Source: Oscillospiraceae bacterium
GTDB taxonomy: Bacteria; Bacillota; Clostridia; Oscillospirales; Oscillospiraceae
NCBI GenBank assembly: GCA_015067785.1
Contig: SVLR01000015.1
Location: 1-50,717 of the forward strand
Length of the DNA stretch: 50,717 bases
Direction: 5' to 3'
The notes under the pieces are model-generated. The model saw only the letters and a program-made list of their open reading frames with translations. It ran no database searches and was not told the origin of the DNA. Positions 12,949 to 49,695 of this stretch are shown piece after piece. Position numbers and translations under genes: made by a program. Within the stretch, counting starts at the first letter, position 1; each line of letters starts with the position of its first letter.

Positions 12949-12959
12949 GATACGGCAAA

Positions 12960-13145
12960 TATCGCTGTGATCGAAAAGAGTAGCGGAAGCTTAACCTTTA
13001 GAGAGTGGGGGTCATCGGCTGTAAGCCCCTTAGGCGTAATTCCGGGAAAGTGCATTCGGGAGCGATCAGAATTTGAGTGATAAATGAGAGTGGAACCGCG
13101 AGTTTTACGACCCGCCTCTTGTGCTGTAGCACAGGAGGCTTTTTT
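12960..13145 (+). promoter_or_regulatory. T-box leader of cysS (Cys specifier UGC)
   Basis: A T-box riboswitch that senses uncharged tRNA. Stem I closes by TGATCG (12968-12973) with CGATCA (13063-13068) and CGGAA (12984-12988) with TTCCG (13040-13044). TGC at 13051-13053 lies in the resulting internal loop as specifier codon, matching the cysteinyl-tRNA synthetase downstream. The T-box sequence GAGTGGAACCGCG ends at about 13100, and a terminator hairpin follows. Uncharged tRNA-Cys pairing with TGC and with the T-box would favour the antiterminator and raise cysS expression. Confidence 0.92.
13113..13145 (+). terminator. Terminator hairpin of the cysS T-box
   Basis: GCCTCTTGTGC pairs with GCACAGGAGGC around TGTA, with a small mismatch, followed by seven T. 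The T-box bulge competes with its 5' arm. Confidence 0.85.
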
Positions 13146-19103: not shown

Positions 19104-19535
19104 TTATGCATACTTTTCCTTTAGATAAATAATTGCCTGTCTGTAGCCGTCGAGCCCTTGTCCTTTGATCGTTTTTTCACAGTAGAGGCCGGGATAGGAG
19201 AATTTACGGAAATCCTCCCGGGAATCCACATCGGAAATATGCACCTCAACGGCAGGAATTGCCACAGCTTTCAGGGCATCAAGAATTGCTACGGAGGTGT
19301 GGGTATAGGCGGCAGGATTGATTACGATCCCGTGATATACACCGTATGCCTGCTGGATCTTATCGACGATCGCACCTTCGTGATTGGACTGGAACTGGTC
19401 TATTGTTATGGCTAACTCCTTTGCAGTGCTTTCCAAAAGGGCGAGTAGATCGAAAAAGGTCTGTTTTCCATAAATGTTCGGCTCCCGGATGCCAAGCATA
19501 TTAAGATTAGGTCCGTTGATAACAAGTAGCTTCAT
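19104..19535 (-). CDS. aroQ: Type II 3-dehydroquinate dehydratase
   Basis: A 143-aa protein of normal length. LLVINGPNLNMLGIREPNIYG has the catalytic Tyr (NIYG), QSNHEGAIVDKIQ and VINPAAYTHTSVAILDAL the substrate-binding loop with the conserved Asn/His, and VEVHISDVDSREDFRKFS the EVH(I/L)S segment (consensus R-x-x-F/W-R follows). It dehydrates 3-dehydroquinate to 3-dehydroshikimate, step 3 of the shikimate pathway. It is the last gene of the aromatic operon; its ATG overlaps the stop of aroE/aroK by three bases. Confidence 0.97.
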   Translation of the reverse strand: MKLLVINGPNLNMLGIREPNIYGKQTFFDLLALLESTAKELAITIDQFQSNHEGAIVDKIQQAYGVYHGIVINPAAYTHTSVAILDALKAVAIPAVEVHISDVDSREDFRKFSYPGLYCEKTIKGQGLDGYRQAIIYLKEKYA

Positions 19536-20749
19536 TTTTGTCCTCCAAGGATAGAATTTACGGCTGCTTCCGGTGTAGTGTCATTATCTATTATTATGTC
19601 AGCAAATGCTTCATAAAGAGGTGCACGCACCTGATACATAGCATCTATCCGTTGCGCTTGAGACAGGGGACGACCGTCGGTGGGGAGAAGGGAGATATCG
19701 CGCTTAAGCCAAACAATTTTGCTGTTTTGGTGGAGAAGCGGATAGTTTTCCGGTCTTGTAACACACCCTCCGCCTGTGGCGATAATAACCCCTGACTGTT
19801 TTGAAGTATCGGTAAGAACTTCAGTTTCCAATCTGCGAAAGCCTTTTTCGCCTATGGATGCGAAGATCTCCGGAATCGATATACCGGTTTTCTCCACAAT
19901 TAGGCGGTCGGTATCTATAAACTCCCGATTAAGTGTTTTAGAAAGCAAACGGCCAACAGTGGATTTACCACAGCCGGGCATACCAATAAGTACGATGTTT
20001 TCCATATCTGCTTTCAGCTTCTCGTAGATCTCTCTAATTCTGTCGTCCGGGATTTTCCTTCCTGTAAACCACTCGGCGCTTTCCTTTGCTTGTGCGACTA
20101 ACATATATAGACCGTTTCGTGAGATGATTCCTCGCCTTTCGGCATCAAGAAGAAGTGCGGTACGGGCGGGGTTGTAGATGAGATCCAAAACGCCCTCTAA
20201 ATTTGGAAACAGAGACAGATCAACGGGGGATGCGCCATTATCCGGATACATTCCGACAGGAGTGCAGTTTACGATCACAGACGCATCGCTGTGTAAATGG
20301 AGATTTCCGTAATGATTTTCGCCATGGCGCGAGATCACAACTACCTTCGCATGATTCCCATTTAGAACTGCAGTAACAGTAGCGGATGCACCACCGCTGC
20401 CCAGCACAAGTACCTTCTTGCCCGCAACGGATAGACCGGACGCCGTCAGCATTGCCGCAAAGCCAAAATAGTCTGTATTATGGCCGATCAAACGCCCGTC
20501 AGCAGTTTTTACAATGGTATTCACCGCCCCAAGCAGCGCCGCTTGGGGAGAAAGGTCATCGCAATAGCCAATAACTTCTTTTTTATATGGAATCGTTACA
20601 TTGAGCCCGTCAAAATCTTTTTTTTGCAGAAATCCGGCAAGCTTGTCCGGCTCGACCTCCAATAAATCGTAGCGGTAATTGCCGAGCTGTCTATGGATCT
20701 GCGGGGAATAGCTGTGGGTCAGGTGTCTGCCGAGTAATCCGCAGTTCAT
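19532..20749 (-). CDS. aroE-aroK: Fused shikimate dehydrogenase - shikimate kinase
   Basis: Residues about 1-249 are AroE: GLLGRHLTHSYSPQIH (shikimate site), FDGLNVTIPYKKEV with the catalytic Lys, GAVNTIV, GHNTDYFG and VLGSGGAS (nucleotide binding). From about residue 250 the chain continues as AroK: ENIVLIGMPGCGKSTVG is the Walker A, DTDRLIVEKTG the shikimate-binding Asp pair, FRRLETEVL and ATGGGCV further sites, DGRPLS the lid. It reduces dehydroshikimate and then phosphorylates shikimate. Two adjacent ATG codons exist (20752 and 20749); the second is chosen because GAGGTG is then five bases away. There is no convincing ribosome site before the internal Met at 20005, so a true fusion is likely rather than two products. 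Confidence 0.95.
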   Translation of the reverse strand: MNCGLLGRHLTHSYSPQIHRQLGNYRYDLLEVEPDKLAGFLQKKDFDGLNVTIPYKKEVIGYCDDLSPQAALLGAVNTIVKTADGRLIGHNTDYFGFAAMLTASGLSVAGKKVLVLGSGGASATVTAVLNGNHAKVVVISRHGENHYGNLHLHSDASVIVNCTPVGMYPDNGASPVDLSLFPNLEGVLDLIYNPARTALLLDAERRGIISRNGLYMLVAQAKESAEWFTGRKIPDDRIREIYEKLKADMENIVLIGMPGCGKSTVGRLLSKTLNREFIDTDRLIVEKTGISIPEIFASIGEKGFRRLETEVLTDTSKQSGVIIATGGGCVTRPENYPLLHQNSKIVWLKRDISLLPTDGRPLSQAQRIDAMYQVRAPLYEAFADIIIDNDTTPEAAVNSILGGQK

Positions 20750-21891
20750 CATACCACCTCGCTGTAGCTGCCTAAATACTTAAATTCCTCGCAAAGATCG
20801 TCCAGTTCGCAAATAAGCTGCACAAATTCGTCAGAGTATATGGATGTTTCCAGATCAAAGTAGAACATAAACTCAAAGTCTCGGTCCGGAATGGGCCGCG
20901 ATTCCAGCTTGATGACATTGATGCCGAGGACATACATCCGCGCCAGGACCTTATAGAGTGCACCGGGCTTATGGTGCAGGATCATCATAATGCTTGTCTT
21001 GTCTGCGCCGGGGTAGATTTCTAAGTTTTTGCTGATGCAAATAAAGCGCGTACGGTTGTTACCCTCGTCCTGTACATTGGGTGCAAGGCAGATAAGACCG
21101 TAAAGCGCCTCGCAGTTTCGGCTGGACAGCGCAGCAATATCCGTTCGATTAGCATCTGTCACCATTTTGGCAGCTACCGCTGTGTTTTCGACGGGGATGA
21201 TATTTGCGTTTGGGAATTTCTTGAGGAAGTCTGAACATTGATTGATGGCCTGCTCATGGGAATAGATTTCGCGGATGTCTTCCATTTTCGTACCTGGCTT
21301 TGCCAGTAAGCTGTGATCGATTTTCAGTCGGAAGGATCGGACAATGGAGAAATTGTGATGGATCATCAGGTCGTAGACTTTCTTCACAGAGCCGGCGGTG
21401 GAGTTTTCGATGGGCAGGATTCCGTATTGACACAGACCCTGCTCAATGGCGTGAAACACCCCGTCGAAATTCTTAAAATACATAATCGAGGGAGACTTGA
21501 AAATCTTCTCGCATGCGATCTGAGAATAAGCGCCTTCTACACCCTGGCAAGCAACCATTGGTGCCTGTGGGAACAGCTTAGGTGTCGCATCAATAGAAGC
21601 TGTGATGGATTCGTTGAGCTTCGTTAAATGGGTGGTGGTGCGACTTTGGTGACCGCGGCTCAATTCAAAAAGCATGGCATATAGTACCCGCGTGTACTGC
21701 GCCATATCGGGACCGGCTTTTTCAGCTACATCCTGAAGCTTGGCGCGCTCGCGACCGGGATCAAATATGGGAAGACCGTTTTCTTTCTTGTAGGCACCTA
21801 TCATTTGTGCAACATTCATCCGCTCCAAAAAAAGCTGGACGAGTTGCTCATCAATGTTGTCGATCTGGTCTCGTAATTCATTTATATCCAT
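20749..21891 (-). CDS. pheA: Bifunctional chorismate mutase / prephenate dehydratase
   Basis: A 380-aa protein with three domains. Residues about 1-90 are an AroQ-class chorismate mutase (ELRDQIDNIDEQLVQLFLERM). About 110-285 are prephenate dehydratase (CQGVEGAYSQIACEKIF, GILPIENSTAGSVKKVYDLM, the region with NRTRFICIS carrying the catalytic Thr-Arg). About 290-375 are an ACT domain (HHKPGALYKVLARMYVLGINVIKLESRP), whose ESRP motif binds phenylalanine, so feedback inhibition is expected. It makes phenylpyruvate for Phe synthesis. It lies two bases after aroC and touches aroE/aroK. Confidence 0.97.
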   Translation of the reverse strand: MDINELRDQIDNIDEQLVQLFLERMNVAQMIGAYKKENGLPIFDPGRERAKLQDVAEKAGPDMAQYTRVLYAMLFELSRGHQSRTTTHLTKLNESITASIDATPKLFPQAPMVACQGVEGAYSQIACEKIFKSPSIMYFKNFDGVFHAIEQGLCQYGILPIENSTAGSVKKVYDLMIHHNFSIVRSFRLKIDHSLLAKPGTKMEDIREIYSHEQAINQCSDFLKKFPNANIIPVENTAVAAKMVTDANRTDIAALSSRNCEALYGLICLAPNVQDEGNNRTRFICISKNLEIYPGADKTSIMMILHHKPGALYKVLARMYVLGINVIKLESRPIPDRDFEFMFYFDLETSIYSDEFVQLICELDDLCEEFKYLGSYSEVV

Positions 21892-21893
21892 AC

Positions 21894-22979
21894 CTAAGCA
21901 TCCTTTCTGCTTGCAAGATAGGCGTCGTATATAGCAATCGCGGCAGCTGCTTCAATCACCGGGACAGCACGGGGGACGATACAGGGATCGTGGCGTCCTC
22001 TTACCTGCAGTTCTTGTGTAGTCATTGCAGAGAGTGAAACGCTCTGCTGCAGTTTCGAAATAGAGGGCGTTGGCTTGATTGCGGTAGTAAAAATGAGTGG
22101 CATACCGTTTGTAATGCCGCCCAAAATGCCGCCTGCATTATTGGTTACGGTTACAATTTTTCCGTCGTCAATGCAATATGCATCGTTATTCTCACTGCCG
22201 CGCATATAGCTGCCGCTAAAGCCCGATCCAAAATCAATACCTTTGACGGCAGGTATGCCGTAGACGATAGAAGCAATTCTGCTTTCCATACCGCCGAACA
22301 TAGGGTCGCCCCAGCCTGCCGGAAGCCCAGTGACGATGCATTCAATGATGCCGCCAAGGCTGTCACCATCCGCCTTTGCTTCGGCGATTGCCTGCTTCAT
22401 CCGGTCACCGGCTTCCTTGTTCAGCACAGGAAAATCGTCACACAGGGACAATACAGCTTGGCTTGTGGGGTCTTGAAACAGAGGCTCATCGGCTATGCCA
22501 CCGAGGACGGAGATGTGGGCCTGAACGGTAATTCCCGTAGCCTCCAGCCATTGCTTGCAAAGACCGCCGGCGATACAGAGAGGAGCAGTTAAGCGACCGG
22601 AAAAATGACCGCCGCCGGCAATGTCCTGATAACCTTTGTATTTAACCTGTGCGGTGTAATCCGCGTGACCGGGACGGGGACAGTCCATAAGATTATTATA
22701 GTCACCGGAACGGGTATTCTCATTGCGGATGATTGCGGCTATGGGTGCGCCGCAGGTATGGTTGTTTACGATCCCGGAGAGAAAATCAGGCAGATCAACT
22801 TCTTTTCTTGCTGTGGTATATGCGCCCTGGCCCGGTGCGCGGCGTGAAAGAAACTGATTCAGCGCCGCAGGATCTACAGGCAGACCCGCAGGAATTCCGT
22901 CAAGGGTCATTCCAATGGCTGCGCCGTGAGATTGGCCAAAGATGGAAAGCTTTAGGTTTTCACCGTATGTGCTGCTCAT
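21894..22979 (-). CDS. aroC: Chorismate synthase
   Basis: A 361-aa FMN-dependent enzyme starting behind AGGAGGTAACT. MSSTYGENLKLSIFGQSHG is the signature opening with the active-site His, then RRAPGQGAYTTARKEVD, RPGHADYTAQVKY and GGGHFSGRLTAPL; near the end RGRHDPCIVPRAVPV. It converts EPSP to chorismate, the branch point for Phe, Tyr and Trp. The first 20 bases overlap the 3' end of aroA. Confidence 0.98.
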   Translation of the reverse strand: MSSTYGENLKLSIFGQSHGAAIGMTLDGIPAGLPVDPAALNQFLSRRAPGQGAYTTARKEVDLPDFLSGIVNNHTCGAPIAAIIRNENTRSGDYNNLMDCPRPGHADYTAQVKYKGYQDIAGGGHFSGRLTAPLCIAGGLCKQWLEATGITVQAHISVLGGIADEPLFQDPTSQAVLSLCDDFPVLNKEAGDRMKQAIAEAKADGDSLGGIIECIVTGLPAGWGDPMFGGMESRIASIVYGIPAVKGIDFGSGFSGSYMRGSENNDAYCIDDGKIVTVTNNAGGILGGITNGMPLIFTTAIKPTPSISKLQQSVSLSAMTTQELQVRGRHDPCIVPRAVPVIEAAAAIAIYDAYLASRKDA

Positions 22980-24150
22980 AGTTACCTCCTAAGTGCTTAT
23001 AGATGTCCCAAAAAGCGGGATAAGATTTGGAAACACATTGAGCGTCCAGAATGGTTACAGGACCGTCCGCAATGGTTGCGCCGATGGCAGCAGCCATTGC
23101 TATACGGTGATCTTTTTGCGACTGGATCGTGCAGCTTTGGAATTTTCCGGGGTAGACAGTCAGCGTATCTTCGCTGGCTTCTGCACGAATGCCAAATGAT
23201 GAAAGCATGGAAAGCGTGGATGCGATCCGGTCGGATTCTTTCAGTCTCAGTCTTCGAACACCGGTAAATTTACCGCCGTTTCTTGCAGCAGCAACACTAA
23301 GGATGGGAACCAGGTCAGGAATGTCCGTAGCGTCAATATACAGTGGACCGTGTTCTGCAAGAATATCCTTGCAGATACGGTCACCCTGCGCTGAGTCCTG
23401 CCGGAGTCCGTCTATGGAAATGCTGCTACCTAATGCATTGGCGGCATAGAAAAACGCAGCATTGCTCCAATCCCCCTCCACAGACAGCTTCCCTGGAGAT
23501 TTCAAGGGCAGGGAAGGAGGTATATTTCCATTCGTGATATTCGCGCCAAAGCTGCAAAGTGCATCCTCCGTAAGACGGATATATGGCCCAGACTCTATCT
23601 TACCGGTGACGGTCAATGTGCAAGGCTCGTTGAGCAATACGAGTGCAAACAGCAGCCCAGAAATGAACTGACTGGAAACACCGCCGTCAATTTGATAGGC
23701 ACCGGGGCGGAGCTTTCCTGAACATCTGAGTATGTTTCTTTCGGGATGGGTGATTACACAGCCCATACGCTCCATCTCTTCTTTCAAGGGGGAAAGCGGG
23801 CGTTCAGGCAGTCGTCCGGCCATACGGAACTGTGCATTCACACCAAGTGCTCCGACAACCGGCAACATAAATCGAAGCGTGGATCCGCTTTCGCGGCAGT
23901 TCAAAACTGCTTGCTCAGGTGCGCTTAGGATGGGGATAACACGGTATCCTTCAGTCGTTTTGGTTATTTGTGCACCTAATGCATTCAGGCAATCAGCAGT
24001 TGCAGAAATATCTTCATTGATTTCAGGGCAGATAATTTCTGTAGGGCCATCTGCAAAAGCTGCACAGATAAGAAGCCGATGTGCTTGAGATTTAGATGGG
24101 ATGATCCGGACGGTACCGCTGAGCTTGCCCGGTTGGATGGTAATATCCAT
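22960..24150 (-). CDS. aroA: 3-phosphoshikimate 1-carboxyvinyltransferase (EPSP synthase)
   Basis: A 396-aa protein, a little shorter than E. coli AroA. SGTVRIIPSKSQAHRLLICAAFADG is the first shikimate-3-phosphate site, NCRESGSTLRFMLPVVGALG the second conserved segment (the class I LPG/NAGTAMRPL form is replaced by SGSTLRFMLP, closer to class II types), and RLKESDRIASTLSML and DHRIAMAAAIGA later ones. It transfers enolpyruvate from PEP, step 6. It starts one base after the aroB stop and overlaps aroC by 20 bases. Confidence 0.97.
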   Translation of the reverse strand: MDITIQPGKLSGTVRIIPSKSQAHRLLICAAFADGPTEIICPEINEDISATADCLNALGAQITKTTEGYRVIPILSAPEQAVLNCRESGSTLRFMLPVVGALGVNAQFRMAGRLPERPLSPLKEEMERMGCVITHPERNILRCSGKLRPGAYQIDGGVSSQFISGLLFALVLLNEPCTLTVTGKIESGPYIRLTEDALCSFGANITNGNIPPSLPLKSPGKLSVEGDWSNAAFFYAANALGSSISIDGLRQDSAQGDRICKDILAEHGPLYIDATDIPDLVPILSVAAARNGGKFTGVRRLRLKESDRIASTLSMLSSFGIRAEASEDTLTVYPGKFQSCTIQSQKDHRIAMAAAIGATIADGPVTILDAQCVSKSYPAFWDIYKHLGGNYEQHIR

Positions 24151-24151
24151 A

Positions 24152-25204
24152 TTATAAGCCTTTCTCTATAAAGGAAGATAATTCATTTACCGAAATGGGA
24201 TACAGGAAGCAATCGCCGATGCTGTGAGGTAAAACAAGCTGTATTGTATTTCCCGACCGCTTTTTGTCGGAAAGGGCACCGGATGCAAGCGCTGTTGCAG
24301 ACAGATCGGTGTGAACCGGCAAGGAAAATTGTTGCAATAATACGGAAATACCTTCGTACAAGTCTTGCCCGCAGAGGTTCAAATTTGCGCTTGCTTTTGC
24401 GATAACAGCCATACCGATCGCAACCGCACGGCCGTGGGAAACGGTAAAATTGCTGAGTTTTTCGATGCTGTGCCCAATGGTGTGCCCTAAGTTTAATTGC
24501 TGACGAATACCTCTGTCAAATTCGTCGGCACAGACAACATTGGCTTTGAGAGAGATGCAGCGGGAGATCACATATTCCCGGTCAAAGCTAAGACCGTTTT
24601 CAGTCAAGTGATGGAATAAGTCCTTGTCAAACAGAATGCCGTACTTGATCACTTCTGCGCAGCCATCAATAAAGACGGCTTCTGGCAGTGTATTAAGGGT
24701 CGAAATGTCACAAAGCACCAGTTCCGGCTGATAAAAGGCACCTGCCAGGTTCTTACCGGCAGGAAGGTCAATGGCTGTTTTGCCACCGACCGAGGAATCC
24801 ACCATGGCCAGCAGGGAAGTAGGAATTTGAACATAGGAGATACCACGCAGATAGGTGGCAGCAGCAAACCCGGTTATATCACCTACCACACCGCCACCAA
24901 GCGCGATCAGCATATCGCTTCGGGTGATCGCGTTTTCGGCAAGAAAGTTCAGAATAGAGATGTATTGCTCCGAATTTTTACTTTCCTCGCCTGCCGGGAG
25001 AACATAATAAGTGACAGTATATCCAGCATCTTGAAGAGACTGTACTGCTTGTGCGCCGTATATTGGCCATATATTGCTGTCACTGACAATTGCAACCTTA
25101 CAAGTTGGATGAACCTCAGTGATATATTCCCCTAACCTTGGCAGGAGGTGACTACAGATATGAACACAGTAGTGTTTGGATGCATTTACTGTAACGGTTC
25201 TCAT
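24152..25204 (-). CDS. aroB: 3-dehydroquinate synthase
   Basis: A 350-aa protein. LPAGEESKNSEQYISIL and LIALGGGVVGDITGFAAATYLRG form the NAD site, YVQIPTSLLAMVDSSVGGKTAIDL the conserved core, ECAEVIKYG-type (here GCAEVIKYG) and LNLGHTIGHSIE carry metal ligands. It cyclises DAHP to 3-dehydroquinate, step 2. Its ATG overlaps the tyrA stop by four bases. Confidence 0.98.
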   Translation of the reverse strand: MRTVTVNASKHYCVHICSHLLPRLGEYITEVHPTCKVAIVSDSNIWPIYGAQAVQSLQDAGYTVTYYVLPAGEESKNSEQYISILNFLAENAITRSDMLIALGGGVVGDITGFAAATYLRGISYVQIPTSLLAMVDSSVGGKTAIDLPAGKNLAGAFYQPELVLCDISTLNTLPEAVFIDGCAEVIKYGILFDKDLFHHLTENGLSFDREYVISRCISLKANVVCADEFDRGIRQQLNLGHTIGHSIEKLSNFTVSHGRAVAIGMAVIAKASANLNLCGQDLYEGISVLLQQFSLPVHTDLSATALASGALSDKKRSGNTIQLVLPHSIGDCFLYPISVNELSSFIEKGL

Positions 25205-26031
25205 CCGTCTACCTCCTCTTTTCTTCTGCGGCCTTCCTCCAATAGAGAAATCAAGGCATCTTCGTCACCGTGATCGATGGCATCCCGGTATTTTGAGAGA
25301 CTGTCAATGTAGATGCTCAGCTCAGAAAGTACATTTTCGCGATTGGATAAAAATAACTCTGCCCACATATTTGGATTGAGCCAGGCAACGCGGGTCAAAT
25401 CCTTGTAACTGCCGGCGGAGAAACCTTTATGTGCAGTTGCTGTGGGTGACTTAATGTAGGCGTTGCTTACGATGTGAGGCATCTGAGAAGTAAAGGCGAT
25501 CATCTTGTCGTGCTCCCTGGCGGTGGTAACGGAAAAGCTTCCAAACCCACAGGGGGCGAGCGCATTTTTTATGCGGCTCAGAAGCTCCGGATCATCGTAG
25601 CGGGGCGGTACAAGGACCATTGGCGCACCCTGAAACAAATTAGACCGGCTATACTTAAAGCCTGAAAAATGGGAGCCTGCCATGGGGTGACCGCCTACAA
25701 AGGTAAAACCGTAGCGGTCGGCCAAGGGGAAACCCCGGCTGCATATTGTCTCCTTTACACCGCAGCAGTCAATCACGAGTGCATCCGGACAGATAAGGCA
25801 TGCGTTTTCTTCCAGCCAGGCGATAGAACCGCCAGTGAAAATCGCCAGAAGTATCAGATCACAGTTCGTGATGTTTTCGTCTGTTAAAGGATGGTGAACT
25901 ACACCTGCAAGTGTTGCAAAATCCAAAATGGAGGGATCTTTTTCGGCAGCAAAGACAGTGTGCCCCGCTTTCGCGTATGCCCGTGCAAGAGAACCGCCGA
26001 TCAGACCGAGACCGAGAATACCGACATTCAT
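25201..26031 (-). CDS. tyrA: Prephenate dehydrogenase
   Basis: A 276-aa enzyme that opens NVGILGLGLIGGSLARAYAKAG, a classic GxGxxG NAD(P) fold. FVGGHPMAGSHFSGFKYS contains the active-site His, and TSQMPHIVSNAY and FKDLTRVAWLNPNMW-like (here YKDLTRVAWLNPNMW) complete the family pattern. It has no ACT domain, so Tyr feedback must act elsewhere, for example through operon attenuation. It produces 4-hydroxyphenylpyruvate for Tyr. It overlaps aroF and aroB by four bases each. Confidence 0.96.
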   Translation of the reverse strand: MNVGILGLGLIGGSLARAYAKAGHTVFAAEKDPSILDFATLAGVVHHPLTDENITNCDLILLAIFTGGSIAWLEENACLICPDALVIDCCGVKETICSRGFPLADRYGFTFVGGHPMAGSHFSGFKYSRSNLFQGAPMVLVPPRYDDPELLSRIKNALAPCGFGSFSVTTAREHDKMIAFTSQMPHIVSNAYIKSPTATAHKGFSAGSYKDLTRVAWLNPNMWAELFLSNRENVLSELSIYIDSLSKYRDAIDHGDEDALISLLEEGRRRKEEVDG

Positions 26032-27029
26032 AAGATTACCTCGCGAATTTTGCGGACACGGCGGTTCACTTCGTCGAATTGTGCCGGAGTCAGGGACTGT
26101 GCCCCGTCACAGAGAGCGCAGGCGGGGTTATTGTGGACCTCAACCATAATTCCGTCAGCTCCTGCTGCAGCGGCTGCGGCGGCCATAGAGGAAACAAGCG
26201 CAGCACGACCGGTAGCGTGACTAGGGTCAACAATGACCGGCAGGTGGGTCAGCTCGTGAAGGACCGGGATCGCAGAAAGATCGAGAGTATTTCTCGTGTA
26301 GGTTTCATAGGTGCGGATACCGCGCTCACAGAGGATGATGTTCTCGTTGCCTTCGCTCATAATATACTCCGCGCTCATCAGTAGTTCCTGAAGGGTATTG
26401 GCGAGACCTCGCTTGAGAAGGATGGGCTTCTTCGTTTTACCTAATTCCTGCAAAAGATCAAAATTCTGCATATTTCTTGCACCAACCTGAATTATGTCCA
26501 CATCTTCAAATAGGTCAATGGTCCGGATGTTCATAATTTCAGTGATGATAGGAAGTCCGGTTGCTTTCTTTGCCTCTAGCAGGAGTCGGATGCCTTCATC
26601 CTTCAGACCTTGGAATGCGTATGGGGAGGTGCGGGGCTTAAAAGCACCACCGCGGAGAATATCTGCTCCGGAATTCTTAACAGCAGTTGCAACTTCAACA
26701 ATTTGGTCCAGGGATTCTACTGAGCAGGGACCGGCGATCATAGCGAAATGGCCACCGCCTATGCGGACATTTCCAACCTCTACTACGGTATCCGTTGGAT
26801 GGAATTTACGGTTTGCCTGCTTAAAGGGCTCGGAGATCCGCTTTACGCTGGAGACGATCTCCAAACTATTGAGAAGCTCAATATCGACGCGGCTGGTGTC
26901 ACCAACAAGACCGAGGATTGTGACCTCTTTACCTTCGGAAATATGGACATCCATACCCATATTTTTGAGCCAGCTTACCAAATGCTCGGTCTGCTGCGGG
27001 GTGGTGCCGTGTTTGAGTACTGCAATCAT
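26028..27029 (-). CDS. aroF: 3-deoxy-7-phosphoheptulonate (DAHP) synthase, type I-beta
   Basis: The start at 27029 has AGGAG nine bases upstream; upstream in-frame codons would run into the attenuator. The 333-aa protein has an N-terminal ferredoxin-like domain (residues about 1-70, MIAVLKHGTTPQQTEHLVSWLK) typical of the AroF/AroG(I-beta) subgroup, then the barrel: FAMIAGPCSVES, ILRGGAFKPRTSPYAFQGL, IIQVGARNMQNFDLL, PILLKRGLANTLQE and PVIVDPSHATG. It condenses PEP and erythrose-4-phosphate, the entry step of the pathway. The N-terminal domain mediates Phe/Tyr inhibition in relatives. It is the first gene after the leader-peptide attenuator. Confidence 0.97.
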   Translation of the reverse strand: MIAVLKHGTTPQQTEHLVSWLKNMGMDVHISEGKEVTILGLVGDTSRVDIELLNSLEIVSSVKRISEPFKQANRKFHPTDTVVEVGNVRIGGGHFAMIAGPCSVESLDQIVEVATAVKNSGADILRGGAFKPRTSPYAFQGLKDEGIRLLLEAKKATGLPIITEIMNIRTIDLFEDVDIIQVGARNMQNFDLLQELGKTKKPILLKRGLANTLQELLMSAEYIMSEGNENIILCERGIRTYETYTRNTLDLSAIPVLHELTHLPVIVDPSHATGRAALVSSMAAAAAAAGADGIMVEVHNNPACALCDGAQSLTPAQFDEVNRRVRKIREVIL

Positions 27030-27042
27030 ATAATCAACTCCT

Positions 27043-27078
27043 AAAAAAATAAGCTGCACAGCTTAGCGTCTGTGCAGC
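27043..27078 (-). terminator. Attenuator terminator of the aromatic operon (hairpin 3:4)
   Basis: On the minus strand GCTGCACAG (27078-27070), loop ACGCTAAG, CTGTGCAGC (27061-27053), then TTATTTTTTT to 27043. The nine-base stem is perfect. It ends 13 bases before the aroF start, with the ribosome site AGGAG placed just after the T-run, so terminated transcripts would lack aroF. Confidence 0.92.
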
Positions 27079-27176
27079 ACCTGAAAATAATGGCAAAATT
27101 CTAAAATTCCGGGCAACACAAAGCGCTATTACTTTTTGCGATAAAAGTAATAGTATCCAAAATAAAACTGTGTTGC
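27053..27176 (-). promoter_or_regulatory. Ribosome-mediated attenuator with competing RNA segments
   Basis: Four segments are visible on the minus strand. Segment 1, GCAACACA (27176-27169), lies in the leader codons just before the Phe/Tyr run. Segment 2, TGTGTTGC (27120-27113), is its exact complement. Segment 3, GCTGCACA (27078-27071), can also pair with segment 2 (six Watson-Crick pairs, one G-U, one mismatch). Segment 4, TGTGCAGC (27060-27053), pairs with segment 3 to form the terminator. A ribosome stalled on Tyr or Phe codons would cover segment 1, free segment 2 for 2:3 pairing and prevent the terminator. With enough Phe and Tyr the ribosome finishes, 1:2 can form and 3:4 terminates. 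Confidence 0.85.
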
Positions 27177-27194
27177 AACGGATTTTGTAGACAT
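27129..27194 (-). CDS. Phe/Tyr-rich leader peptide of the aromatic operon
   Basis: ATG at 27194 follows CAGGAGAAGGTCAA, a strong ribosome site. The 21-residue peptide begins MSTKSVATQ, continues with FYFGYYYFY (three Phe, five Tyr) and ends RKK before TAA (27131-27129). Eight aromatic codons in nine is far beyond chance and places the translating ribosome exactly where it can control the RNA switch. There is no Trp codon, which fits an operon that contains tyrA and pheA but no trp genes. The position between a consensus promoter and an intrinsic terminator is that of classical attenuation leaders (compare pheA, his and trp leaders in enteric bacteria). Confidence 0.92.
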   Translation of the reverse strand: MSTKSVATQFYFGYYYFYRKK

Positions 27195-27224
27195 TTGACC
27201 TTCTCCTGCGGATAAGATGGTGTG

Positions 27225-27253
27225 ATTATATCACCGCAAAAACAGTTTTGCAA
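27225..27253 (-). promoter_or_regulatory. Promoter of the aromatic operon
   Basis: On the minus strand TTGCAA (27253-27248) and a perfect TATAAT (27230-27225) are 17 bases apart, with the leader peptide start about 30 bases downstream of the -10 box. Confidence 0.85.
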
Positions 27254-27281
27254 TAGTTATTTTTCTTTTTATCGATATATT

Positions 27282-28130
27282 TTACTCTTTTTTTACAGTA
27301 AGACTGTCGTACTCCTCCAATGCAGAAAGCAGTTCTGCCGGAGTTGAAAAACGCATTTCCGGTACAGTCGCGCAAGCAGACAGTATAATCGCAGAGATTC
27401 CTCTGTCCGCATTTGCCGGCGGGTCACTTAGCTTGTCCGGTAGTCTGCCGTGATGTAATGCCTGATATAACACGGCGCCTATGCTATAGACATCTGCGTT
27501 TGGACTGACCTTAGAAAAGCAGTCACGGCATTCCGGCGGAAAATATGCTGTATTATACCCGCCTGGCATAGGGCAATAGGGGAGTGTTGAAAGGGGGAGA
27601 AAGCCAATATCTCCAATTTGGAAGTGACCTTTATTGGTTAAATAGATATTTTCCGGCTTAATACCGGCATATAAAAATCCTGCCTCCCGACATTGCAGTG
27701 CGCCGCGGCAAAGCGTGATTCCCAGTTCTATGGCAGCGTCTACTGTCAAGTCGTGTCTTGAGAAGGCGGTTGCTAATGTCAGTCTATAAGGATAGAGCAG
27801 GCATACGTCACAGCCGATGTCTGCTCGTTTTGCAGTTTGGCAGTTGGAGATGTGAGAGAAATATTTGCTGTGAGAAAGGGCATTCAGGATCGCTGCCTGA
27901 CGGCATATTTCCCGCGCACAGTCCATGTAGTATTTGTCCACATTCTCCAAATCCGGGTAAGCACCGGATAGTAAGAGTGCATCAGTCAGATTTGCCTTTA
28001 ATGGGATGGATATTACCTTTGCAACATACTTTTCGCCGGTTTCTTTATCTGTTGCCCGATAACAGCAGGTTCCACAGCGAGTGATGGATGGCTCGGCAAG
28101 GGTATAATTTTCTAAAAACTGTATTGACAA
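27282..28130 (-). CDS. Protein-kinase-like protein lacking the catalytic aspartate (predicted pseudokinase)
   Basis: The start is taken as TTG at 28130 because AAAGGAGG lies eight bases before it and the kinase fold begins right after; the open frame extends up to 28280 without any ribosome site. The 282-aa product has the glycine-loop region (ITRCGTCCYRATD), a VAVK-type Lys in KYVAKVISI (about residue 38), a C-helix region with CAREICRQAAIL, then YAGIKPENIYL in place of HRDxKPEN: the proton-accepting Asp is Gly (about 156). DFG is DIG. DVYSIGAVLYQALHHGRLP is the conserved helix F region. Phosphotransfer is therefore probably lost or weak; ATP binding may remain. No extracellular sensor domain is present. 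It is divergent from a zinc-ribbon/Big2 surface protein. Confidence 0.8.
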   Translation of the reverse strand: MSIQFLENYTLAEPSITRCGTCCYRATDKETGEKYVAKVISIPLKANLTDALLLSGAYPDLENVDKYYMDCAREICRQAAILNALSHSKYFSHISNCQTAKRADIGCDVCLLYPYRLTLATAFSRHDLTVDAAIELGITLCRGALQCREAGFLYAGIKPENIYLTNKGHFQIGDIGFLPLSTLPYCPMPGGYNTAYFPPECRDCFSKVSPNADVYSIGAVLYQALHHGRLPDKLSDPPANADRGISAIILSACATVPEMRFSTPAELLSALEEYDSLTVKKE

Positions 28131-28310
28131 TTCTTCTTCCTCCTTTTGTCGTATATGCACATAGTAGGCTTTATATAGGGAAAATTCCATTGAATCGTGT
28201 TGCCTGCTGTATTTATTGGAAGGTTGAAGATATTGTGCTTTCGGAATAAGGACACCACGAGACAGCCGCAGTATCATCATAAAATTCTATAAAATATTTT
28301 CTAAAAACAG

Positions 28311-49459: not shown

Positions 49460-49695
49460 ATATTATAAGGCTTTGATAGGGAGTTTCCGGTATAGAAGCA
49501 TTTTCAGAGAGTATGCATTTGGTGGGAGCGTACAATGCGATACCTGAATTGTCGCCCTTGAGCTGATTTCCTGAAAAGAACAGTAGGGAAGTCCGGGTTT
49601 GCCCGTTATAGCTTAGGAGTGCCCTTCGGGGAATTCAGGTGGTACCGCGGAAATCTTTTCGCCCTGAGAGTTTTCTCAGGGCGTTTTTATTTTTT
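49460..49695 (+). promoter_or_regulatory. T-box leader of valS (Val specifier GUC)
   Basis: The 363 bases between the glycosyltransferase gene and valS hold a promoter and this T-box. Stem I has GGTAT and GCATT on the 5' side pairing with ATACC and AATGC on the 3' side. GTC at 49551-49553 (in GAATT-GTC-GCC) is placed as the specifier codon and matches valine. The T-box AGGTGGTACCGCG lies at 49637-49649, and a terminator hairpin follows. Uncharged tRNA-Val should raise valS expression. Confidence 0.93.
49660..49695 (+). terminator. Terminator hairpin of the valS T-box
   Basis: CGCCCTGAGA pairs with TCTCAGGGCG around GTTT and is followed by TTTTTATTTTTT. Confidence 0.9.

Follow-up and report, generated by a model that had tools for sequence, protein, structure and literature searches.

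The aroF operon of an Oscillospiraceae bacterium (GCA_015067785.1) raises the question of whether, and by what device, its transcription is coupled to the supply of the amino acids that it serves to make. In Clostridia, the regulation of amino acid genes is commonly explained by T-boxes and repressors, and attenuator control by leader peptides is best known from Proteobacteria. The initial annotation of contig SVLR01000015.1, the stretch of 50,717 nt analysed here and referred to as the window, had nevertheless proposed a Phe/Tyr leader-peptide attenuator in front of aroF, at positions 27043-27253. The element reads on the minus strand.

The gene for DAHP synthase, aroF (26028..27029, minus strand), is the first gene of the operon and is followed by tyrA, aroB, aroA, aroC, pheA, an aroE-aroK fusion and aroQ, in that order (19104..26031, minus strand); tyrA, aroA, pheA and the fusion are named by best matches below the NCBIfam curated cut-offs. 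These eight genes belong to the Phe/Tyr pathway and encode tyrA- and pheA-type proteins, the makers of the two amino acids for which the leader codes. As had been noted before, no trp gene is found among the eight. TrpE was found in none of the 10 genomes searched in the genus of the window (0/15 with five genomes of the order added) and TrpC in 2 of 41, because of which Phe and Tyr appear to be the end products of the pathway in this genus, the near-absence of TrpE and TrpC suggesting tryptophan auxotrophy. The single Trp among the 739 residues of the 37 aligned leaders described below fits such a pathway. Upstream of the element lies a kinase-like gene (27282-28280) whose kinase-family matches are far below cut-off and whose stop codon is 28 bases from the promoter-like site. 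The window was also said to use T-boxes twice, and both exist on the plus strand, one at 49464-49669 (117.6 bits) and a second one at 12958-13122, which with 68.4 bits is below the Rfam gathering score. T-boxes and the leader device are thus used side by side in this genome.

The element begins with a promoter-like site, TTGCAA-17-TATAAT (27225..27253, minus strand). It does match the consensus at 10 of 12 positions, as the description of it as a consensus promoter implied, but chance alone would give about one match of this quality in the region (1 found, mean of 1.3 in shuffles). An exact TATAAT occurs no more than 70 nt 5' of the leader ATG in 19 of the 37 leaders, and TATAAT or a listed near-variant in 35, both counts being without shuffle control. 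The leader frame has 21 codons and a TAA stop (27129..27194, minus strand; ATG 27194-27192, TAA 27131-27129) and encodes the peptide MSTKSVATQFYFGYYYFYRKK. Its codons 10-18 read FYFGYYYFY, that is eight Phe/Tyr codons in nine, exactly as first reported, and the strong ribosome site is likewise there as an AGGAG just 5' of the ATG. With start, ribosome site and stop all present, it is a putative short translated frame, of a kind that recurs in the relatives as aromatic frames.

Four segments on the minus strand had been assigned to competing pairings in the order 1:2, 2:3 and 3:4, and their coordinates stand: segment 1, gcaacaca (27169..27176); segment 2, tgtgttgc (27113..27120), which lies within a conserved block; segment 3, gctgcacag (27070..27078), the 5' arm of the terminator and predicted partner in the antiterminator; and segment 4, ctgtgcagc (27053..27061), the 3' arm of the terminator followed by the T-run. 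In the window 1:2 is paired at 8/8 positions and 3:4 at 9/9. The 2:3 pairing is less regular, its 8 positions including one U-U mismatch and one G-U, and the perfect 1:2 pairing of the window is variable in relatives. The terminator (27078-27053; 9 pairs, tail TTATTTTTTT), which had been called perfect, was recovered by a mechanical search as the one hairpin of its kind (mean of 0.3 in shuffled sequence), and it ends directly before the ribosome site of aroF. The fold of the whole leader RNA beats its shuffles with a z of -4.16, 1 of 200 shuffles being as good.

The initial annotation had missed a further hairpin of 11 bp, referred to here as the codon-stop hairpin (27126..27153, minus strand; arms 27153-27143 and 27136-27126). 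It pairs CTATTACTTTT, a Tyr/Phe-coding stretch that begins at the end of codon 14 and reaches just into codon 18, with AAAAGTAATAG, the Lys-Lys-stop-TAG stretch.

The helices were compared in an alignment (A1) of 37 leaders, comprising the window and 36 leaders from its closest relatives. The alignment omits G010 and G034, two genomes of the same genus with a divergent aroF and no leader found, and G035, in which the aroF match is partial and whose upstream region is absent from the set. The terminator helix is 94.3% paired, 6 of its 9 pairs have both partners replaced in one or more sequences, and by four of five measures its covariation is above that of every one of 500 shuffles. In the codon-stop hairpin 99.8% of cells are paired, a level reached by 2 of 500 shuffles; two pairs show a change on both sides, and 6 of the 11 never vary and are hence uninformative. 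One of the leaders, L111, has replaced an A-U pair by C-G while a Tyr codon became Ser and the stop codon moved, and the pairing therefore outlasts the sense of the codons. Such an RNA constraint would explain the recurrent Lys-Lys ending of the leaders. Of 120 distinct leaders that are not among the 37, 110 have an aromatic window that pairs over at least 6 bp with RNA further 3' (a count without shuffle control), a 1:2-type hairpin that includes the codon run being present there as it is in the codon-stop hairpin; the median fold z of these 120 leaders is -2.24, with 64 of them below -2. Spacing is preserved as well. The distance from the ATG to the core is 30, 33, 36, 39 or 42 nt in the 37 leaders, all in phase, which is partly by construction as the frames were picked for aromatic content, and in 36 of the 37 the conserved block containing segment 2 begins at a distance of 9 nt from the first base of the stop codon.

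The same comparison bears on a different kind of switch, in which the nascent peptide itself would bind free Phe or Tyr, or would stall the ribosome by its sequence in the manner of TnaC, and the stall would control the terminator. Some of the distant aroF leaders (L182, L191, L195, L199, L221, L224, L232 and L233) do share, across families, a motif like F-S-A/T-G-Y/F-F that sits after the first aromatic block and could be a constraint on the peptide. In the three of them whose codons were compared, L191, L195 and L199, the codons for the motif are also similar, so that RNA pairing may explain it, and the peptides of the 37 close leaders vary in sequence, length and spacing while their aromatic composition persists. 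Peptide arrest is thus an unlikely basis for the switch, and the reading preferred here remains attenuation by ribosome position.

The least supported element of that attenuator is the 2:3 pairing. In the 37 leaders 85.9% of its cells are paired, only 3 cells are changed on both sides, and column 100:149 never pairs in any of the 37, segment 2 keeping its never-pairing U (columns 100/149) throughout. A shuffle test of 2:3 applied locus by locus, which has little power, gave p<=0.05 in 25 and p<=0.01 in 7 of 92 leaders, and p<=0.05 in 3 of 11 regions in which no leader was found. Two folding models were considered. Where helices may close around the ribosome and the RNA extends up to segment 3, mean 2:3 pairing was 0.29 with no ribosome, 0.37 with a ribosome stalled at a Tyr codon and 0.05 with a ribosome at the stop; for the window itself this model gave 0 in all three of these states, whereas a stall at the first Phe codon gave 0.94 and stalls at any later codon no more than 0.12. 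Where only the RNA downstream of the ribosome folds, with the leading edge placed at +12 to +15, the means were 0.70-0.85 for stalled ribosomes, 0.29 without ribosome and 0.02-0.34 at the stop, the stop state rising to 0.81 with the leading edge at +11. The corresponding values for the window were 0.98 stalled, 0.00 without ribosome and 0.21-0.71 at the stop (+12 to +15). In the full-length RNA the terminator wins in every ribosome state, and the decision must therefore be kinetic, made before segment 4 exists. A switch in the classical order is plausible, the folding models supporting it under some of their assumptions only, though it is unproven by folding.

The mechanism would then work as follows. 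With both tRNA-Phe and tRNA-Tyr charged, the ribosome would reach the stop codon and cover the start of segment 2; segment 3 could then pair with segment 4, and transcription would stop. With either tRNA uncharged, the ribosome would stall in the aromatic run, open the codon-stop hairpin and block segment 1; segment 2 could then pair with segment 3 and RNA polymerase would read on into aroF. Without translation, segments 1 and 2 would pair and the terminator would form.

The 37 aligned leaders served to build a covariance model. At E<=0.01 it recognised the element, in sense orientation and 5' of aroF, in 31 of 67 untrained loci and in none of 22 control loci (his, ilv and E. coli), with one further match (E 0.0066) on the other strand. 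Class- and phylum-level aroF loci gave 20 matches in 97; the sets of 67 and 97 loci partly overlap, L043 and L144 for instance being the same leader. In 37 genomes of the same genus one strong match was found in 31, each just 5' of aroF, these being the training sequences that match by construction. The model detected no second strong site in these 37 genomes, and their other matches either represent the hairpin in antisense or come with E values of about 0.02 or more. The six genomes without a match comprise three without an aroF match and three with a divergent aroF only. When applied to 197 genomes of the order, the model matched 26 at E<=0.01. Their 29 match rows include 19 in sense orientation before aroF (two being training sequences), one antisense of these, 2 before a TrpB-like gene and 7 (E 6.4e-4 or more) with neither gene nor an aromatic frame.

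No Rfam family was found at gathering score at the aroF leader. Down to E=10 the region 26900-27350 has nine weak matches, all with E of at least 0.29 and none to an amino-acid leader or T-box family, and RF01859 (Phe_leader) has no match there; as a yardstick, E. coli pheL scores 132.3 bits against RF01859. The T-box family RF00230 was absent at gathering score from the aroF locus of the window and from 40 further aroF loci, 20 with and 20 without a leader. These searches make it very improbable that the locus is a tRNA- or ligand-sensing RNA, be it a T-box or an unknown riboswitch, with its terminator placed behind an incidental frame. The region is structured and T-boxes are used in the window, as this explanation would have it, but the frame is hardly incidental when its aromatic composition recurs and the pairing of the codon-stop hairpin is retained despite a shifted stop, as in L111.

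The recurrence of the frame was scored over windows of 10 residues, the best one in any short frame being taken and at least 6 aromatic residues required; in the same pipeline E. coli pheL shows 7/10 aromatic residues and the same anatomy. Among 123 distinct aroF upstream regions from the relatives, the window's own included and one of them merely 186 nt long, 98 have an aromatic-rich short frame 5' of aroF, compared with 0/123 on the reverse strand and 25/1230 in dinucleotide shuffles. A class-level sample of 69 regions, of which 2 were too short and were excluded, has it in 45 of the 67 usable regions and 30 of 37 families (reverse strand 2/67, shuffles 17/670). This sample is non-random, consisting of the 29 best-matching aroF loci and 40 of the listed loci picked by hand to spread over families, and it shares 2 of its 45 leader peptides with the set of 123 regions. 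A phylum-level sample reaching other classes has the frame in 17 of 28 regions after gene starts were relocated, without shuffle control. A terminator lies 3' of the leader in 91 of 99 loci (shuffles 15/297) and in 40 of 45 class-level loci (shuffles 8/225). The arrangement of frame and terminator upstream of aroF is accordingly seen in most clostridial families sampled. Four contigs titled Bacteroidaceae, Thermoguttaceae or Lentisphaerae (L030, L036, L040 and L064) carry a clostridial-type aroF and are probably mislabelled or mixed bins; an aromatic frame is located upstream of aroF in L036 and L064.

Leader peptides do not appear to be a general device of these relatives. At 21 loci upstream of hisG or acetolactate synthase-like genes no His-rich or Ile/Leu/Val-rich frames were found by the thresholds used, hisG not necessarily being the first gene of its operon. 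A T-box is present just 5' of an acetolactate synthase-like gene in one genome, G040. The idea that AT-rich intergenic sequence yields Phe and Tyr codons, themselves AT-rich, and that the hairpin before aroF is a terminator acting constitutively or marks where the transcript of the upstream gene ends, that gene stopping 87 nt before the leader ATG, has a very low probability, as the shuffled, reverse-strand and other-gene controls rule out a chance frame and the element is conserved in relatives.

Because the frame recurs, the terminator covaries, the codon-stop hairpin shows a compensatory change and the covariance model recognises the element across Clostridia, positions 27253-27043 are likely to form a ribosome-mediated transcription attenuator that would couple the supply of Phe and Tyr to transcription of aroF-tyrA-aroB-aroA-aroC-pheA-aroEK-aroQ. 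The reading of the initial annotation is in this way largely borne out by comparative evidence, with corrections; the conservation of frame and pairings in relatives, on which it had staked that reading, was found, 2:3 being again the weakest part. If this is true, many Clostridia would regulate Phe/Tyr synthesis by ribosome stalling, and annotation would miss such leaders because their frames are so short.

The element has also been identified in front of genes for TrpB-like PLP enzymes, in G039 (L257, 561-3815; with a sodium/solute symporter following) and, in the order search, in G548 (L280) and G587 (L278). The leaders in G548, G587 and G039 are MRNVSAKYWRYFNFTFYGFAVGK, MKNANCIAKYWYFYFTQVAR and MRNVSAKYWRYFNFTFYGFAAGV, respectively, each with Trp in its aromatic run. 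G039 and G548 belong to one genus, so that the arrangement represents two lineages (two genera). By comparison, 18 of the 19 aroF-linked leaders of the order search are readable and all 18 are without Trp. There is thus an apparent change of the sensing codons with the controlled gene, Trp appearing with the TrpB-like gene; these observations are post hoc and few. In G173 and G235, which are of one genus, the aro cluster has a TrpB-like gene in ninth place (L319, L320), and the last residues of the aroF leader are RWRKF or WRWRKF.

Two extensions of this pattern were rejected. Trp is present in 12 of 54 aroF leaders of the wider sample, and it does not predict a genomic TrpE (7/12 Trp-bearing against 14/42 Trp-free leaders, Fisher p=0.11). 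Placement of the element before TrpB-like genes is no general rule either, as 0 of 30 class-level TrpB-like genes, located by tblastn, have an aromatic leader. G062 has a Trp-bearing leader, yet its TrpB-like gene is on another contig behind a T-box. T-boxes were seen just 5' of the TrpB-like gene in 3 of 17 loci scanned (L306, 1111-1358; L311, 1156-1418; L295, 2930-3178, minus strand), and this type of gene is hence found with a T-box in some Clostridia and with an aromatic leader in others.

Taken further, these leaders could represent one ancestral, modular attenuator family, the aromatic counterpart in Clostridia of the T-box, that stands before aroF in most families sampled and whose codons were retuned whenever it moved or its operon changed, with Trp entering at the TrpB-like gene. 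We give this an even chance. The apparent change of codons with the controlled gene would make it a natural experiment on how attenuator specificity changes.

The view that attenuation is a hallmark of Proteobacteria, taken by the initial annotation, was overstated, since leaders for His and Leu in Firmicutes and a Phe uORF in Acholeplasma are in print (PMC2965389, PMC9413887, PMC5794164, PMC8632094). His leader attenuators are reported in the Bacillus cereus group, relatives of Clostridium difficile and Erysipelotrichales (PMC2965389, PMC9413887), in 17 genomes in one account (PMC9413887), and for the hisZ genes of C. difficile and B. cereus, RNA structures dependent on His-tRNA have been predicted in the upstream region (PMC4833913). 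The His leaders are like the aroF leader in having a leader peptide with a codon run and a terminator/antiterminator, and unlike it in their His codons and his genes. The Leu-rich ilv-leu attenuator of Staphylococcus aureus, reported with support from a mutant and from promoter activity (PMC5794164), is again leader-peptide attenuation in a Firmicute, but concerns branched-chain amino acids and Bacilli. The uORFC-13-1 motif has a Phe uORF and an intrinsic terminator before aroF in Acholeplasma, and attenuation was suggested for it by its authors; it comprises 24 sequences, from Acholeplasma and environmental samples only, that code for at least one Phe residue (PMC8632094). In titles and the starts of abstracts of the open-access literature, none among the matches listed describes a Phe/Tyr leader in Clostridia, which does not by itself establish priority.

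The E. coli pheL-pheA system (RF01859) is alike in anatomy. Both have a short Phe-rich leader, a codon run predicted to pair downstream and a terminator, and the distance from the leader stop to the gene is nearly the same (98 nt from pheL to pheA, 99 nt to aroF here). Unlike pheL, the leader described here mixes Phe and Tyr and has its stop codon inside a hairpin arm, and its operon is that of the chorismate-Phe-Tyr pathway. The T-box follows the same physiological logic as a leader attenuator, uncharged tRNA leading to readthrough, and senses the tRNA directly, without translation; it is used elsewhere in the window, and none occurs at gathering score at aroF. With uORFC-13-1, going by its description, the aroF leader shares a uORF containing Phe before aroF and an intrinsic terminator. 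The leaders described here are accordingly regarded as a new, widespread family that uses a known mechanism.
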